The position numbers were made by a program, and so were the translations under genes. A stretch of 64,000 nucleotides of DNA from Peptococcaceae bacterium CEB3. Its GTDB lineage: Bacteria; Bacillota; Desulfitobacteriia; Desulfitobacteriales; Desulfitobacteriaceae. A model generated the notes under the pieces. The model was not told the DNA's origin and ran no database searches. It saw only the letters and a list, made by a program, of their open reading frames with translations. The DNA is taken from positions 124,001 through 188,000 of the forward strand of contig LDXJ01000058.1 of the NCBI GenBank assembly GCA_001029295.1, written 5' to 3'. This document shows positions 5,017 through 54,568 of the stretch, piece by piece (position 1 is the stretch's first letter; each line of letters starts with the position of its first letter).

Positions 5017-5049
5017 CGGTCGTAAATTGAATAATGGATGAGTGATTCT

Positions 5050-5245
5050 TTCCCGAGGGAAGGAATTGAAAAGGGAAGTCAGTCGAAGCTGACGCGGTGC
5101 CCGCCACTGTAAAAGAGAGTTGACTCACAGCGTGTCACTGGGATTTTTGACCCGGGAAGACGTGGGTTGACGATGATCTTGAGCCAGGAGACCTGCTCAT
5201 TCAGAAGTTGCTGCGACCTACGGGAGTGTTAGGGGGTGGATTCGT
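5050..5245 (+). ncRNA. Cobalamin (AdoCbl) riboswitch
   Basis: The conserved core is present: GGGAAG, then GCGGTGCCCGCCACTGTAA (about 5094-5112), a GGGAAGAC segment, and the AGGAGACCTGC box near 5188-5198. It lies downstream of a consensus promoter and upstream of a terminator and a Ni/Co permease gene. In this family cobalamin binding normally promotes termination or blocks translation, so cobalt uptake would be shut off when B12 is plentiful. Confidence 0.92.
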
Positions 5246-28602: not shown

Positions 28603-28735
28603 CCTCTCATCTCTCAGAACTCATGTTCTGCAGGAATTAGCACCTCGTAGTCCGAAGCTCCATTAAAGAGCTCCCACCGACTACCGGTTGCCGGGCATCA
28701 TCGGGCCAGTCCCTCCGCCGCTCTTGATGAGTGGA
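28603..28735 (-). ncRNA. SAM-I (S-box) riboswitch
   Basis: The minus strand shows the S-box core in order: ATCAAGAG, GGCGGAGGGACTGGCCC, GATGATGCCCGGCAACC, a GTGCTAATTCC segment, and AGATGAGAG at the 3' end. It is followed by a terminator and metY. SAM binding favours termination. Confidence 0.94.
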
Positions 28736-38989: not shown

Positions 38990-39385
38990 ATAGAAAAAGT
39001 CCACGGTTGTTCCCCTTTGGGACGAAAACCGTGGACTTCCGTGTTACCACCCAATTTGGCCAAAAATGGCCCGCTCTCCAGGGTACCGAACGTACCAGAA
39101 TGAAACAAAAAGAGAGCCCTCATCCCTAAGGGACGAGAAGCTCGCGTTACCACCCTGCTTGGCAAAAATTGCCCGCTCAATAAAGGTACGGGACCAACAA
39201 TCCGATACCCCCTTCCTTTTAACGGGGAAGAACCGTTCCAGCCTACTTTTTCTTGTTCAGCCGACAGCTCAAGAGGGAACTTCAACCGCCGCCTCCTTAG
39301 AAGGGCTCCCAGTCAGCGACCCTTCCTCCCTGAAAATCAGCCTGCAGTCTACTTTACTCTGTCATCGCCTTTGCCTATGAAGTTT
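38990..39385 (-). ncRNA. T-box leader with two antiterminator/terminator modules
   Basis: On the minus strand, a stem I region (GATGACAGAGTAAAGTAGAC at about 39360) carries a candidate Phe specifier TTC near 39277-39279 within GAAGTTCCC. Then come T-box AGGGTGGTAACGCG (39143-39156) with terminator GAGC..GCTC and TCTTTTTG (about 39105-39143), and a second T-box GGGTGGTAACACGG (39039-39052) with terminator AAGTCCACGG/CCGTGGACTT plus TTTTTC (38992-39038). Each T-box is preceded by a GAGCGGGC..TTTTTG segment, so the module is duplicated. Uncharged tRNA-Phe is expected to allow readthrough into pheA. Confidence 0.88.
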
Positions 39386-40710: not shown

Positions 40711-41314
40711 TGATCTCTCCCCCTAACCCCACGGCATCTGACTCATCCCGGATGGTCAGAGTTCGCCTAAAGTGGGCTTTCGCCCTACGCAGACGGGCAT
40801 AAGCCGTGGAACGATTTATGTTCAAAGCGGAAGCGATTTCTTCCATAGTCAGGTCTGCATAATATCTTAAGACCAAGATCTGAGCCTCATCTTCTGACAA
40901 AGCCTTGAGGACATGGGCCACTTCGTCTTTGAGCAGAAAAGCTTGTTCCCAGGAATCCGCTATGCCGGCCCTTGGCATGTCATCAGCGATGGGTATTACC
41001 TTGTGGCGCCTGGCAGACTTGACTAGATCCTTCGCTTGATTCACGGTGATAGTCGTGACCCACGCCGAGAACTTGCTTTTGTCCCTAAGCTGATTCATTT
41101 TCACATAGGCTTGGGCAAAGGCCTGCTGAACAGCATCCTCGCTCAGTTCTCTATCACCGGTTATGGAAAAGGCGATGAGATAAAGTTTCCTGTAGGATTG
41201 CCTAAAGAGAATCTCGAACAACTCAAGATTCCGGTCAAGAGATGCCAATGCACGAACCCCCCGCTCTCTCCATCCGACTGGGGAAGCCTGACCCTCAATT
41301 AATTCACTTTTCAT
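40697..41314 (-). CDS. ECF-type RNA polymerase sigma factor
   Basis: 205 residues: region 2 (LFRQSYRKLYLIAFSITGDRELSEDAVQQAFAQAYVKM.. FSAWVTTITVNQAKDLVKS) and region 4 (LSEDEAQILVLRYYADLTMEEIASALNINRSTAYARLRRA) with no sigma 1.1 or region 3. GGTGGAG precedes the ATG. It is encoded with its probable anti-sigma factor. Genes under its control are unknown; the secreted protein downstream is the closest candidate. Confidence 0.9.
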   Translation of the reverse strand: MKSELIEGQASPVGWRERGVRALASLDRNLELFEILFRQSYRKLYLIAFSITGDRELSEDAVQQAFAQAYVKMNQLRDKSKFSAWVTTITVNQAKDLVKSARRHKVIPIADDMPRAGIADSWEQAFLLKDEVAHVLKALSEDEAQILVLRYYADLTMEEIASALNINRSTAYARLRRAKAHFRRTLTIRDESDAVGLGGEINEPG

Positions 41315-41372
41315 TATACTCCACCCGCTCGCTGCACTCCATACTGCCTCGATCCTTTTTCATTCAATCGTG

Positions 41373-41403
41373 AGACTCCCACTTCTACAAGTAGGAGTGG
41401 TTC
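41373..41403 (+). repeat. Interspersed hairpin element, copy C (fragment)
   Basis: GACTCCCACTTCTACAAGTA with flanks CAATCGTGA and GGAGTGGTTC, as in copies B, D and E, with one stem mismatch. Only the end hairpin is left. Confidence 0.7.
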
Positions 41404-41492
41404 ACTGTACCGCGCTTTTTTTACTATTGCCCAACATCGGGAGTCAAATAAGCAAACTTAAGCGCGGCAGTTTATCCCCTTATGCTCCATAC

Positions 41493-41533
41493 CCCTATCT
41501 TAACGTGCGAAAAACCCTATCTTAAGGTGCGAA
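41493..41533. promoter_or_regulatory. 19-bp direct repeats two helix turns apart
   Basis: CCCTATCTTAACGTGCGAA (41493-41511) recurs as CCCTATCTTAAGGTGCGAA (41515-41533): 18 of 19 bases are the same, 22 bp centre to centre. Same-face spacing suggests a protein-binding pair. It lies upstream of the small transcript at 41637 and the nif region. Confidence 0.55.
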
Positions 41534-41603
41534 GGCGTAAGCAAAACCCCGCATTTTCCTAAAATTAGGCCCCATCTGCCTGTATTTGCCCGCCAATCGC
41601 CGA

Positions 41604-41706
41604 TGACAAATGATCCGTTCTGGTTTATACTAACAACAGATATTAATTGATTTGGCAAAGGCGCCGTAAATCGCGGAGATCCGCGACGAGCGGCGTTTTT
41701 TTTGCC
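41604..41706 (+). ncRNA. Candidate small RNA or attenuated leader upstream of hutP-nif
   Basis: A promoter TGACAA (41604-41609), 16 bp, TATACT (41626-41631) is followed within about 30 bases by a two-part stem, CGCCG/CGGCG (41662-41666 with 41691-41695) and TCGCGG/CCGCGA (41671-41686), and eight T residues (41696-41703). The product would be a transcript of about 65-70 nt. It matches no riboswitch I know. Further downstream (41735-41776) are two GC palindromes. Confidence 0.5.
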
Positions 41707-41777
41707 CTGTCAGAGCGTATGGCTTCGGTTCAATCACTCGCTCGCTTGAGCGAGCGCGGCCCCGGCCGGGGTCTCTT

Positions 41778-41824
41778 CATCCAATCGTGGGACTTCCACT
41801 TCTAAAAGTGGGAGTGGTTCCCTC
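41778..41824 (+). repeat. Interspersed hairpin element, copy D (fragment)
   Basis: CATCCAATCGTGGGACTTCC, then ACTTCTAAAAGTGGGAGTGG and TTCCCTC. The flank TTCATCCAATCGTG is shared with copy E. It ends 12 bases before the ribosome site of the HutP-like gene. Confidence 0.7.
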
Positions 41825-41852
41825 AATCTCGGCACAAGGAGGTGGCTCCGGT

Positions 41853-42296
41853 GTGAAATCCATGCCGGCAGAATCCGAAAACAAGTTCTCACTCGAACGA
41901 GCCGCTTTGCTCCTGGCTCTCAGTGAAACCCGGCAGGAAGAGAATAGTCTGAAAGAACATTACACCGTCCATGAGAAAATCACCTGTGGCGTCACCGAAA
42001 CCGGCGGAACGGTTGCCGCTCTGCAACACACGGGGAAACTGACAAATTCTGTGCTCTCAACCGGCCTTAACACCGGGGTGATCCGCAAAGACGCCAAACA
42101 GATCCACGCTTTGGTGCACGCGGCTTTGGAAGCCAGCAACAGCATTTTTATTCACACCCATGGCAATGCCAGCTTTGCCCTCAAAATCGGTCTGACGACC
42201 GATGGAGACTGGCTGGCGGTGGCAATTTTCGGCCGCTCCTCCCTGCACCCCCTCTCAGAGCACTGCCGGGTAGGATTGGGCTACATGCATCTCTGA
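41853..42296 (+). CDS. HutP-family RNA-binding antiterminator, upstream of nif
   Basis: 147 residues, the length of Bacillus HutP (148). His85 and His89 in AKQIHALVHAALEA and His137 in LSEHCRVGLGYMH match the three metal-binding histidines of HutP (H73, H77, H138), and DGDWLAVAIFG matches DWIAVSLYG. The region between (residues 95-116) is shorter and differs where HutP binds L-histidine, so the effector may not be histidine. The GTG at 41853 follows AAGGAGGT by 9 bases. HutP hexamers bind NAG-repeat RNA and prevent termination. Here the gene is followed by a NAG-rich repeat tract, a terminator and the nif operon, not by hut genes, so control of nif is inferred. Confidence 0.85.
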   Translation: MKSMPAESENKFSLERAALLLALSETRQEENSLKEHYTVHEKITCGVTETGGTVAALQHTGKLTNSVLSTGLNTGVIRKDAKQIHALVHAALEASNSIFIHTHGNASFALKIGLTTDGDWLAVAIFGRSSLHPLSEHCRVGLGYMHL

Positions 42297-42417
42297 GCGA
42301 AGGATTGAGCTATATGCATCTCTAAGTTGGGAGGCTCAGCCACAGCGCGTGGAGCGGGCCGGGTATCACCCGAAAGTTTGCCCGATGCCATCAGAACATG
42401 AACATTGAATCAGCAAA

Positions 42418-42545
42418 GATACAGAGATACGGGGATACAAGGATACAAGGATACAGAGGCGTAGGGATGTAGAGACGCAGAGACGAGAGATTTAGAGAAG
42501 AAGAGATGTGGGGATGCAGAGCCGCGGAGAGCAAAGCAGCAAAGC
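42418..42545 (+). promoter_or_regulatory. Sixteen degenerate 8-nt repeats in the nif leader RNA
   Basis: From GATACAGA at 42418 the sequence can be cut into sixteen consecutive octamers without gaps. The first eight or nine fit GAYRYAGR (for example GATACAAG twice, GATGTAGA, GACGCAGA), and the later ones end mostly in AGAG. Nearly every unit brings a NAG triplet, so NAG recurs about every 8 nt; known HutP sites have NAG every 7 nt. The RNA would be purine-rich and unstructured, a good protein-binding platform. Confidence 0.65.
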
Positions 42546-42638
42546 GCGCCGCCATGCCCCAATATGGTGACATATTTCGCTAGGTCGTTTTATAGAAGTA
42601 CGGGCACCTGAGAACCTCAGGAGCGTCAGAGTGTAAAA

Positions 42639-42680
42639 AGAGAGCCCTTAAAACACGTGTTTAGGGGCTCTCTTTCTCAT
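42639..42680 (+). terminator. Terminator in the nif leader
   Basis: AGAGAGCCC (42639-42647) pairs with GGGCTCTCT (42665-42673), extended by the perfect AAACAC/GTGTTT inner stem, followed by TTTCTCATTTTCC. A small hairpin CCTGAG/CTCAGG (42607-42621) lies just before and may be an alternative structure. It separates the HutP-like gene from nifI1. Confidence 0.85.
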
Positions 42681-42730
42681 TTTCCTCGAAGTCCCTTCCT
42701 CGCCACCGAAACGATAGCAACGGTAATTTA

Positions 42731-42782
42731 AGGGGGTGATGCCGCCGAGTACGCAGCGGCGAGACGTCGGTGACCCAAACAG
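42731..42782 (+). other. Structured segment between terminator and nifI1
   Basis: GGGGGTGATGCCGCCGAGTA followed by CGCAGCGGCGAGACG and TCGGTGACCC can fold into CCGC/GCGG and GGGT/ACCC helices. It lies 45 bases before the nifI1 start. I did not match it to a known riboswitch. Confidence 0.35.
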
Positions 42783-42826
42783 AACATCTTTGAAGTGCAA
42801 ACGGCAAAATACGGGAGGTAAACAAA

Positions 42827-43144
42827 ATGAAAATGATCAGAGCGATTATCCGTCCGGAAAAGGCGGACACAGTGGCCGAGGCTTTGGCGGCGGCCGGGCT
42901 GCCCTCCCTGACGAAAGCGCATGTCTTCGGGCGTGGGAGAACGAAAGGCATCCGGATAGGGGACGTGGTCTATGATGAATTTCCCAAAGTGATGCTCCTG
43001 ATGGTAGTGGAGGATGAGCGCCTGGAGCAGGCGGTCAGCACGATTACGGAAACGGCGCGAACCGGCAGCATGGGCGACGGCAAGATCTTCATTGCCCCGG
43101 TGGAAGAGACTTACACCATCAGCAGCGGGAGCAAAGGGCTGTAG
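42827..43144 (+). CDS. nifI1: PII-like nitrogenase regulator NifI1
   Basis: 105 residues of the PII (GlnB) fold: MIRAIIRPEKADTVAEALAAAG, the T-loop region GRGRTKGIRIGDVVYDEFPK and the ATP-binding TGSMGDGKIFIAPVEE. NifI1 works with NifI2 as a hetero-oligomer that binds and inhibits dinitrogenase when ammonium rises and releases it with 2-oxoglutarate. It is the first gene of the nif operon after the leader, as in heliobacteria, whereas methanogens place nifI1I2 between nifH and nifD. GGGAGGT precedes the ATG. Confidence 0.94.
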   Translation: MKMIRAIIRPEKADTVAEALAAAGLPSLTKAHVFGRGRTKGIRIGDVVYDEFPKVMLLMVVEDERLEQAVSTITETARTGSMGDGKIFIAPVEETYTISSGSKGL

Positions 43145-43191
43145 GCCAAAGCAGGCAAACCAGCGTCGGAAAGGAGTGCTAAAAACAAATT

Positions 43192-43575
43192 ATGAAGGAA
43201 ATTGTGGCTTTTGTACGCCGGCATCAAGTGCCGGCCACCAAAAAGGCCCTGGAAGACGCCAACTTCCCGGCCCTGACGCTTCAAAGTGTGGAAGGGCGGG
43301 GAAAACAAGGGGGTATCGGCGGTTGGGCAGCCGAAATCGATCCTGAACTCAATGGAGTCCTCCCGGCGGGAATAGCCTGTGAAGCCCGCATCAGTTGGAT
43401 TCCCAAAAGGATGTTGACCTTGGCAGTGCAAGACGAGGAAGTCCAACGGGCCGTGCAGATCATCATCAGCGCCAATCAGACAGGGCATATGGGCGACGGC
43501 AAAATCTTTGTCTGTCCGCTGGCAGATACACTCAGGGTGCGCACGGGCGAAAACGGCCCGGCTGCAGTGACTTGA
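43192..43575 (+). CDS. nifI2: PII-like nitrogenase regulator NifI2
   Basis: 127 residues, PII fold with the longer T-loop of NifI2: VEGRGKQGGIGGWAAEIDPE and PKRMLTLAVQDEEV, and the conserved TGHMGDGKIFVCPLADTLRVRTGE end. Partner of NifI1 in post-translational switch-off of nitrogenase. AAAGGAG lies 13 bases before the ATG, rather far, so translation may be modest. Confidence 0.94.
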   Translation: MKEIVAFVRRHQVPATKKALEDANFPALTLQSVEGRGKQGGIGGWAAEIDPELNGVLPAGIACEARISWIPKRMLTLAVQDEEVQRAVQIIISANQTGHMGDGKIFVCPLADTLRVRTGENGPAAVT

Positions 43576-43580
43576 TCTGA

Positions 43581-44495
<915 letters not shown>

Positions 44496-53383: not shown

Positions 53384-54568
53384 GTGCCCAAACGCTATGT
53401 GATTCCAGCCATCGCCGCTACGACCTTACTCGCCGGGGCGCTCGCCTTTTTCGTCTTCCCCCGGCCCGCCTTTCTTTCGGGTCATACTTCCGCTTTTTCC
53501 TTTCTCTCCGGACAGACTCCCTCCCCCTCCTCGCCGAATACTTCCGTCTCCCCCTCGCCGGCGGAAGAACCTTATCCGTCGGCTTCTGTACCGCCACTTA
53601 AACGGGGCCAAAATCCGCATTTGCCACCTTCGACCAACGCTGCCCATGGCTCTTCTCCCGGAGCCAGTTCCCCTAACCCCGGACACCCCCCCGCACCCGC
53701 GGGCAACCCACCCGTCCCTTCCGGGACAAACGCAAAAGGTGCGGCCGACATTGTCTGGTCCCTGGCGGTTAAAGAGCGGGCTGTTTTTATAACCGTTGAC
53801 GACGGCTGGTTTCCCAGCCAACCCCTGCTTCAGCTCATGCGGCAAAAGCACTTGCCTGTCACCGCCTTTCTCATCCAGCAGGCTGCACAGGAGCACCCCG
53901 ATTATTGGCGGGCGTTTTTAGCCGCCGGAGGCAGTATTGAAAACCACACCTTCTCCCACCCGGACCTGGCCAAGCTCCCCTTTCAAGCGGTTGAAAACCA
54001 GGTCCATACGGCCGAAACCTATCTTTCTTCCTTGGGACCGGCACCCACCCTCTTCCGCCCACCCTACGGCGATTACAGCACCTCCGTCCGCCAGGCGGTC
54101 TACCGGGCCGGAATCAAGCATGTCATCATGTGGGACGCGGTCATGAGCGGGGATACCGTGCAGACTTACAATAGCCAGCCTCTTCAACCCGGTTCTATTA
54201 TCCTCCTCCATTGGGACCCCGGGCTCAGTGGCGAAGTTCGCCGGCTGCTCGACATCTTGTACCAAAATAATTTGGGCGTGGCTTCCTTGCCCCAAGCCCT
54301 GGCCAACCCGAACAGTTTCCCCGTCATCTGGCCGCATGGCCAAAACTCAAGCCTCAAAAGCGCCCGCCAAGCACCGAAAGACAGCACGGCTAAGCCACCG
54401 ATCTCTTCGTCTCCCTCCTCTTCGTCTCCCTCTTCTTCGTCTCCCTCTTCTTCGTCTCCCTCCTCTTCGTCTCCCTCCTCTTCGTCTCCCTCTTCTTCGT
54501 CTCCCTCCTCTTCGTCCCCGTCTCCCTCTTCTTCTCCCTCTTCCGGTGACGCTCCCAACGGAGCCTGA
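53384..54568 (+). CDS. Membrane-anchored polysaccharide deacetylase (NodB domain)
   Basis: About 394 residues. N-terminal anchor (VIPAIAATTLLAGALAFFVF), a Pro/Ser-rich linker (residues 30-125), then a NodB domain: VFITVDDGWF with the Asp-Asp motif, ENHTFSHPDL with the zinc histidines, LFRPPYGDYS, MWDAVMSGDT and ILLHWD. It removes acetyl groups from peptidoglycan or another glycan at the cell surface. The C-terminal 45 residues are Ser/Pro repeats encoded by a 15-bp DNA repeat. The GTG at 53384 follows AGGTG; a GTG at 53375 is possible. It is not obviously linked to nif. Confidence 0.88.
   Translation: MPKRYVIPAIAATTLLAGALAFFVFPRPAFLSGHTSAFSFLSGQTPSPSSPNTSVSPSPAEEPYPSASVPPLKRGQNPHLPPSTNAAHGSSPGASSPNPGHPPAPAGNPPVPSGTNAKGAADIVWSLAVKERAVFITVDDGWFPSQPLLQLMRQKHLPVTAFLIQQAAQEHPDYWRAFLAAGGSIENHTFSHPDLAKLPFQAVENQVHTAETYLSSLGPAPTLFRPPYGDYSTSVRQAVYRAGIKHVIMWDAVMSGDTVQTYNSQPLQPGSIILLHWDPGLSGEVRRLLDILYQNNLGVASLPQALANPNSFPVIWPHGQNSSLKSARQAPKDSTAKPPISSSPSSSSPSSSSPSSSSPSSSSPSSSSPSSSSPSSSSPSPSSSPSSGDAPNGA
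54409..54541 (+). repeat. 15-bp coding repeats (Ser-Ser-Ser-Pro-Ser)
   Basis: About eight near-identical units of TCTTCGTCTCCCTCC (or CTCTT variants) in frame, then shorter Ser/Pro codon runs. The copy number may vary by slippage, changing the length of the wall-spanning tail. Confidence 0.9.

Follow-up and report, generated by a model that had tools for sequence, protein, structure and literature searches.

Within the window (the whole stretch of 64,000 nt of Peptococcaceae bacterium CEB3 that was analysed), a HutP-family gene (stop at 42296) is separated from nifI1 (from 42827) by a gap of 530 nt. The gap holds a tract of octamers rich in NAG triplets. Its position in a nif leader is as given in an earlier sequence-only reading; the flanking genes are the HutP-family gene and nifI1-nifI2-nifHDK. 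The operon predicted to be controlled has the order nifI1-nifI2-nifH-D-K-E-N in the list of open reading frames. The order of the leader, from 5′ to 3′, is HutP-family gene, octamer tract, hairpin P1, NAG triplets, terminator, Shine-Dalgarno-like motif, nifI1 (Table 1).

Table 1. Position and supporting evidence of the features of the leader, in window coordinates
Feature	Position	Strand	Evidence and remarks
Promoter-like site, ATGACA-17-TATACT	41603..41631	+	Sole sigma-70-like match in 41300-43700; weak, 1.4 expected by chance
ANTAR-like hairpin, TGGC-AAAGGC-GCCG (loop A1, G4)	41652..41703	+	3′ arm common to an intrinsic terminator
nif-type HutP gene	41847..42296	+	Pfam PF09021, fold, orthologues; start codon uncertain (open frame from 41787)
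Octamer (NAG) tract, proposed extended binding platform 5′ of the core site	42418..42545	+	AG recurrence; counterpart tracts in relatives
GGGC and hairpin P1 (GC-A-CCTGAG / CTCAGG-A-GC)	42602..42625	+	Covariance model R1, covariation
Core site GAG-N5-GAG-N6-AAG, three conserved NAG triplets (8-8 or 8-9 nt pitch)	42621..42640	+	Triplets in 67/69 elements
Intrinsic terminator, 16 pairs, then T-rich tail	42637..42675	+	GCCC arm pairable with GGGC of P1
Extended Shine-Dalgarno-like motif AAGGGGGTGATG, conserved	42730..42743	+	In 41/69 elements
nifI1 (PII family)	42827..43144	+	Pfam P-II, E 3e-25; first gene of the operon

The protein encoded 5′ of the tract matches PF09021 with E 4.5e-34 (117.9 bits, cut-off 25). 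Its profile matches HutP crystal structures. The AlphaFold model has a pLDDT of 89.2; the top Foldseek match is 1vea (E 5e-8, TM 0.75), and HutP structures fill the first 11 places among the PDB matches (TM 0.66-0.75). By this predicted structure, the gene encodes a HutP-fold protein. H87, H91 and H139 (numbering of the window fragment) are conserved in the nif-type proteins and align with the metal ligands of Bacillus HutP, presumably H73, H77 and H138. The protein falls outside the Bacillus HutP equivalog NF002838, the histidine utilisation antiterminator (30.4 bits, threshold 155 bits). The activator is likely a nitrogen-status ligand. The own genome (C27, L118:2790-3215) and the loci L071-L080 encode another HutP-family protein, distant at about 32% identity. 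It adjoins chorismate mutase/trpE in the own genome and azlC in another, has EGAVAGA for IHALVHA, lacks the metal-binding histidines and is not accompanied by such an RNA element.

The functionally conserved part of the leader (42590-42684) begins about 45 nt 3′ of the tract end. It is matched by the covariance model R1, built from 27 copies of the element, with 63.8 bits (E 4.7e-14). The whole element folds at -36.8 kcal/mol, against -23.0 kcal/mol in shuffles (z -3.9). Two of the core NAG triplets lie between P1 and the terminator; the third abuts the terminator 5′ arm. The usual form in relatives is NAG-N5-NAG-N5-NAG, with N6 as the second spacer in the window. The pitch is 8/8 in 53 of 69 elements and within 7-10 in 14 more (8/9, 9/8, 8/10 or 8/7). 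The AG itself never changes, unlike the first base and the spacers. Three NAG triplets at a fixed short spacing beside an intrinsic terminator, as in a HutP-type leader, are present in all but two of the elements, the spacer being 5, not 4. Across copies, P1 and the terminator are paired in 94.6% of cells, and changes on both sides of a pair number 31 (9.0 in shuffles). An alternative pairing of GGGY at P1 with RCCC of the terminator 5′ arm, of 3-4 pairs, is possible in 27/27 elements. Both amtB leaders have U-A for C-G in this pairing (GGGU/ACCC), and their terminator itself is mismatched; L074 has A-U for G-C (AGGC/GCCU). Judged by its sequence, the covarying GGGY/RCCC pairing is the signature expected of an antiterminator, and the GGGC before P1 is proposed to double as the antiterminator 5′ strand. 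The alternative pairing, of 4 bp only, must rely on the protein.

No match was found in 41500-42830 of the window among 4227 Rfam covariance models at E up to 1; the four relatives searched gave just two sub-threshold matches, both away from the element. The P1-NAG-terminator element is absent from Rfam and previously uncatalogued. An R1 match in G045 (E 2e-4) is attributed to chance, being without the core motif and beside an unrelated gene. Minus-strand R1 matches are the palindromic terminator read in reverse. The motif AGGAGGTGATG is an extended match to the 16S anti-Shine-Dalgarno sequence and is located 3′ of the terminator, well before the first gene. A short, non-conserved open reading frame (MALYSSPCES... 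type) follows it in many species.

The tract is 128 nt long and 75.8% purine, which bears out the purine-richness claimed for it. AG pairs exactly 8 nt apart number 12-13, against 4.2 ± 1.8 in dinucleotide shuffles (z 4.9); the runner-up 128-nt stretch on both strands of the whole 64 kb has 6. A search of the whole 5.3-Mb genome for three degenerate octamers (at most 2 mismatches) gave 10 matches, 9 of them inside the tract. Sixteen octamers in perfect register had been described. The tract is indeed divisible into 16 contiguous octamers, but the NAG phase slips and 2 of the 16, at 42426 and 42506, are without NAG. The AG position is 6, none, 7, 7, 6, 6, 6, 6 in units 1-8 and 5/7, 5/7, 5/7, none, 5/7, 7, 1/6, 1/6 in units 9-16. 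Tandem Repeats Finder detects only 5.2 clean octamers (42417-42458), followed by mixed periods. The stated lack of hairpins is only weakly true: the tract alone folds at -12.8 kcal/mol, on a par with its shuffles (-11.7 ± 2.3 kcal/mol, z -0.5). Coding of a repeat peptide by the tract is rejected; the frames are interrupted and a period of 8 nt is out of frame. Octamer repeats alone are not diagnostic, because the exact pattern of six AG at 8-nt spacing is unspecific genome-wide, with many matches from simple repeats and from a repeated family in G004 and G012.

HutP-like orthologues, 60-92% identical, occupy the same location in most family members. The closest relative is Acididesulfobacillus acetoxydans (same genus); the others are mostly Desulfosporosinus and Paradesulfitobacterium. 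The leader order is kept: hutP, AG-rich tract (30-470 nt), P1, NAG triplets, terminator, extended Shine-Dalgarno motif, nifI1. The comparison of related leaders proposed in the sequence-only reading had the outcome hoped for there: in relatives with the same gene order, an AG-rich tract with an 8-nt period stands at the same place and its other bases drift. The core of A. acetoxydans aligns with that of the window (89% over 89 nt); its tract does not align and has mixed spacings of 6, 8 and 10 nt, lags 6, 8, 10 and 12 all being raised. Nif-type HutP (best profile E of 1e-45 or lower) is encoded by 41 genomes of the class. R1 matches 38 of these and none of the other 42; one of the three exceptions has a contig that stops at hutP. 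Among 299 genomes sampled from the phylum, the element and nif-type HutP occur in exactly the same 5. The order hutP-element-nifI1-nifI2-nifH is found in a second family too (f4, heliobacteria by gene content).

The element precedes nif, anf (twice in tandem), amtB, ABC transporter genes (NitT/TauT-like) and the gene of a 506-aa protein. In the alternative-nitrogenase-like cluster, a nifH homologue 62-64% identical is followed by nifI genes. To judge by gene content, the targets nif, anf, amtB and the NitT/TauT-like transporter all fit nitrogen supply; control of hut genes is not indicated, the downstream genes being nif, anf, amtB and the transporter. Six anfH-like operons have two complete modules of NAG array, P1 and terminator in tandem, each with the extended Shine-Dalgarno motif and sometimes a tiny open reading frame. 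The protein family of about 506 aa stands behind the element at eight loci, without a NAG array. It has no Pfam match and a weak likeness to the sigma-32 C-terminal region; the copy in L102 looks frameshifted. By its recurrent position, the family is a putative conserved member of the nitrogen regulon. Neither the sites before the 506-aa gene nor two heliobacterial nif leaders have a long tract.

The pitch of the tract is that of the core, 8 nt. Upstream of 49 non-redundant elements, a set that excludes the window, there are 208 recurrences of AG at 8 nt, where shuffles give 87.6 (z 13.7, a score that, like those by target, overstates the evidence, related species' leaders not being independent and the nif and anf modules possibly sharing descent). 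By target, z is 10.0 for nif, 10.7 for anf, 7.3 for amtB and 4.1 for ABC genes. The control stretch downstream of the terminator gives z -1.3. Counterpart tracts in relatives are not homopurine (rich in UAG and GAUU) and keep AG at 8 nt. AG has the highest persistence of any dinucleotide at +8 (0.28; others at most 0.18), and the other positions between successive NAGs 8 nt apart agree in 43-61%.

With L-histidine and Mg2+ as activators, Bacillus HutP attaches to NAG triplets in the region of the hut terminator and so permits read-through. The tract is read here as part of a HutP-type RNA antitermination leader governing the nif operon, with a probability of about three in four; nitrogen fixation is probably switched on in these bacteria through an RNA antitermination device. 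For the binding of the protein, its stoichiometry, its ligand and the direction of control, the following course is predicted. The transcript would begin 5′ of the HutP-family gene and run through the gene into the leader. By default the strong intrinsic terminator would fold, and nifI1-nifHDK would be off. An active HutP-like oligomer would take the single-stranded NAG triplets, the octamer tract being bound first or cooperatively and the three-NAG core decisively. Occupancy of the core would keep the terminator 5′ arm single-stranded; GGGC at the P1 base could then pair with GCCC of the terminator, and polymerase would read through. The octamer tract may offer a second set of triplets (a second triple-NAG face) or recruit several oligomers, raising local occupancy. 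A multi-site platform, as first proposed for the tract, agrees with the HutP-fold neighbour and with a core of the same 8-nt pitch. Because core copies without a long tract exist, and because spacings are mixed in the closest relative, the tract is best seen, on the comparison of leaders, as a putative accessory platform joined to a core antitermination site, which the sequence-only reading had not noted.

The core could be a real HutP-type antiterminator and the tract a neutral simple-sequence expansion, grown by slippage from an ancestral NAG octamer and of little function. Some related genomes have octamer simple repeats at other places, and the tract is missing at some core copies and ranges in length from under 30 to over 300 nt; many dinucleotides besides AG recur at 8 nt, as tandem duplication predicts. 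However, AG recurs at 8 nt ahead of operons of four kinds but not in the downstream stretch, it persists more than any other dinucleotide and the remaining positions drift, the pitch matches the conserved core, and no second such array is found in the own genome. Neutral expansion is on these grounds unlikely. A role at the level of DNA (purine-strand structure, a dsDNA-binding protein), or as an unstructured spacer or ribosome-loading region with no tie to HutP, would suit the strong purine bias (76%); it is highly improbable, given that relatives' tracts keep AG at 8 nt without being homopurine and accompany an RNA element with covarying pairs.

Control could also be of the opposite sign, with the HutP-like protein blocking the GGGC/GCCC pairing or stabilising the terminator, so that nif is repressed by attenuation. 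Sequence cannot reveal the direction, and TRAP, which also reads NAG, attenuates the trp leader. Against this, protein on the core NAGs, two of them between P1 and the terminator and one against its 5′ arm, should impede the terminator; GGGY/RCCC, the covarying pairing, is incompatible with the terminator; and the characterised member of the HutP family is an antiterminator. Repression is rather improbable. TRAP (MtrB) itself, in place of the HutP-like protein, was considered as reader of the tract: it recognises GAG/UAG triplets, and the own genome encodes a homologue (PF02081, E 1.1e-38). Yet TRAP sites have spacers of 2-3 nt and the tract has 5 (5-6 in the test for TRAP sites), the leaders co-occur with HutP, and leaders are present without TRAP in the Desulfosporosinus genomes searched, G004 and G007. 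TRAP as reader is rejected, most tract-bearing genomes being without it, and its probability is close to negligible.

The HutP-type leader may have a further layer 5′ of the HutP gene. The promoter-like site likely starts the leader transcript. The ANTAR-like hairpin that follows agrees with the ANTAR loop rule, a loop of 6 nt with A1 and G4 (PMC3369931). With a simple pattern, the same arrangement of hairpin and terminator before hutP was seen in only about half of the tested relatives. A single ANTAR protein is encoded in the own genome (L134:1108-1686). The hairpin suggests, as a lead from its sequence, a two-step antitermination cascade. That in Desulfitobacteriaceae and Heliobacteriaceae an ANTAR protein permits production of nif-type HutP, which then coats long NAG arrays of 8-nt pitch and antiterminates nif, anf and amtB, is a tentative reading, short of an even chance. 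If true, the ANTAR-HutP cascade would govern the molybdenum nitrogenase, the alternative nitrogenases and ammonium transport alike, and would include a processive or filament-like multi-hexamer platform of a kind not known for HutP. The ANTAR-like hairpin before hutP is also seen at eleven other loci. At L125, in the heliobacteria-like G080, nif-type HutP is present, the leader is without R1, and an ANTAR-like hairpin (GGC-AATGCT-GCC) stands before nifI1; one antitermination system has possibly been replaced by another there, as far as the motifs indicate.

The nif leader resembles the HutP/hut leader of Bacillus subtilis in its HutP-fold protein, the metal-binding histidines and the NAG triplets near or in a terminator 5′ of an operon. 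It differs in its targets (nif, anf, amtB), in P1 and the GGGY/RCCC pairing, in the long upstream NAG array and in the triplet pitch: 8 nt (N5), against a period of 7 (N4) for the triplets of Bacillus HutP. With the TRAP-trp leader, which has 11 GAG/UAG repeats, it shares tandem NAG triplets, the leader position, a terminator/antiterminator switch and an oligomeric reader, here predicted. TRAP-trp differs in its 2-3 nt spacers, another protein family and attenuation, whereas antitermination is predicted for the nif leader. As in ANTAR systems (EutV, NasR), antitermination by a protein-stabilised RNA structure is proposed; unlike these, the nif element is without dual hexaloop hairpins and its predicted reader is HutP-like.

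The orf1 upstream of nif in Heliobacterium chlorum and Heliobacterium modesticaldum is a probable homologue of nif-type HutP and very likely the same gene, a HutP-family gene standing upstream of nifI1 in heliobacteria-like genomes. It was called 'a possible regulatory gene' (Enkh-Amgalan 2006, cited in PMC7143216). The text on orf1 in PMC7143216 describes no RNA target, no relationship to HutP and no NAG array. Little is known of how nif is switched on in these heliobacteria and Gram-positive sulfate reducers; in the genome papers, as far as PMC7143216 represents them, orf1 is a likely regulator and no mechanism is given. A literature search for HutP with nitrogenase or nifI1, mostly of papers outside subscription, found no paper. 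HutP-type antitermination itself is known. New here are the targets, the 8-nt pitch, the RNA element and the long arrays; the leader is regarded as a new form of HutP-type antitermination because no paper joining HutP with nitrogenase or nifI1 was found and orf1 figures only as a possible regulator. It is the first candidate role of HutP beyond histidine use found in this search. It offers a concrete, testable proposal for an RNA mechanism, and an RNA element by which a nitrogen regulon can be delimited in searches. The NAG arrays, of differing length, form a natural series in which the reading of repeated triplets by an oligomeric RNA-binding protein can be studied.

Rfam matches above gathering thresholds elsewhere in the window are a cobalamin riboswitch at 5023-5214 (+), a SAM riboswitch at 28604-28733 (-) and a T-box leader at 39126-39374 (-). 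A 15-nt repeat (GAGGGAGACGAAGAG, minus strand), present nine times at 54403-54540, probably encodes an acidic protein repeat.
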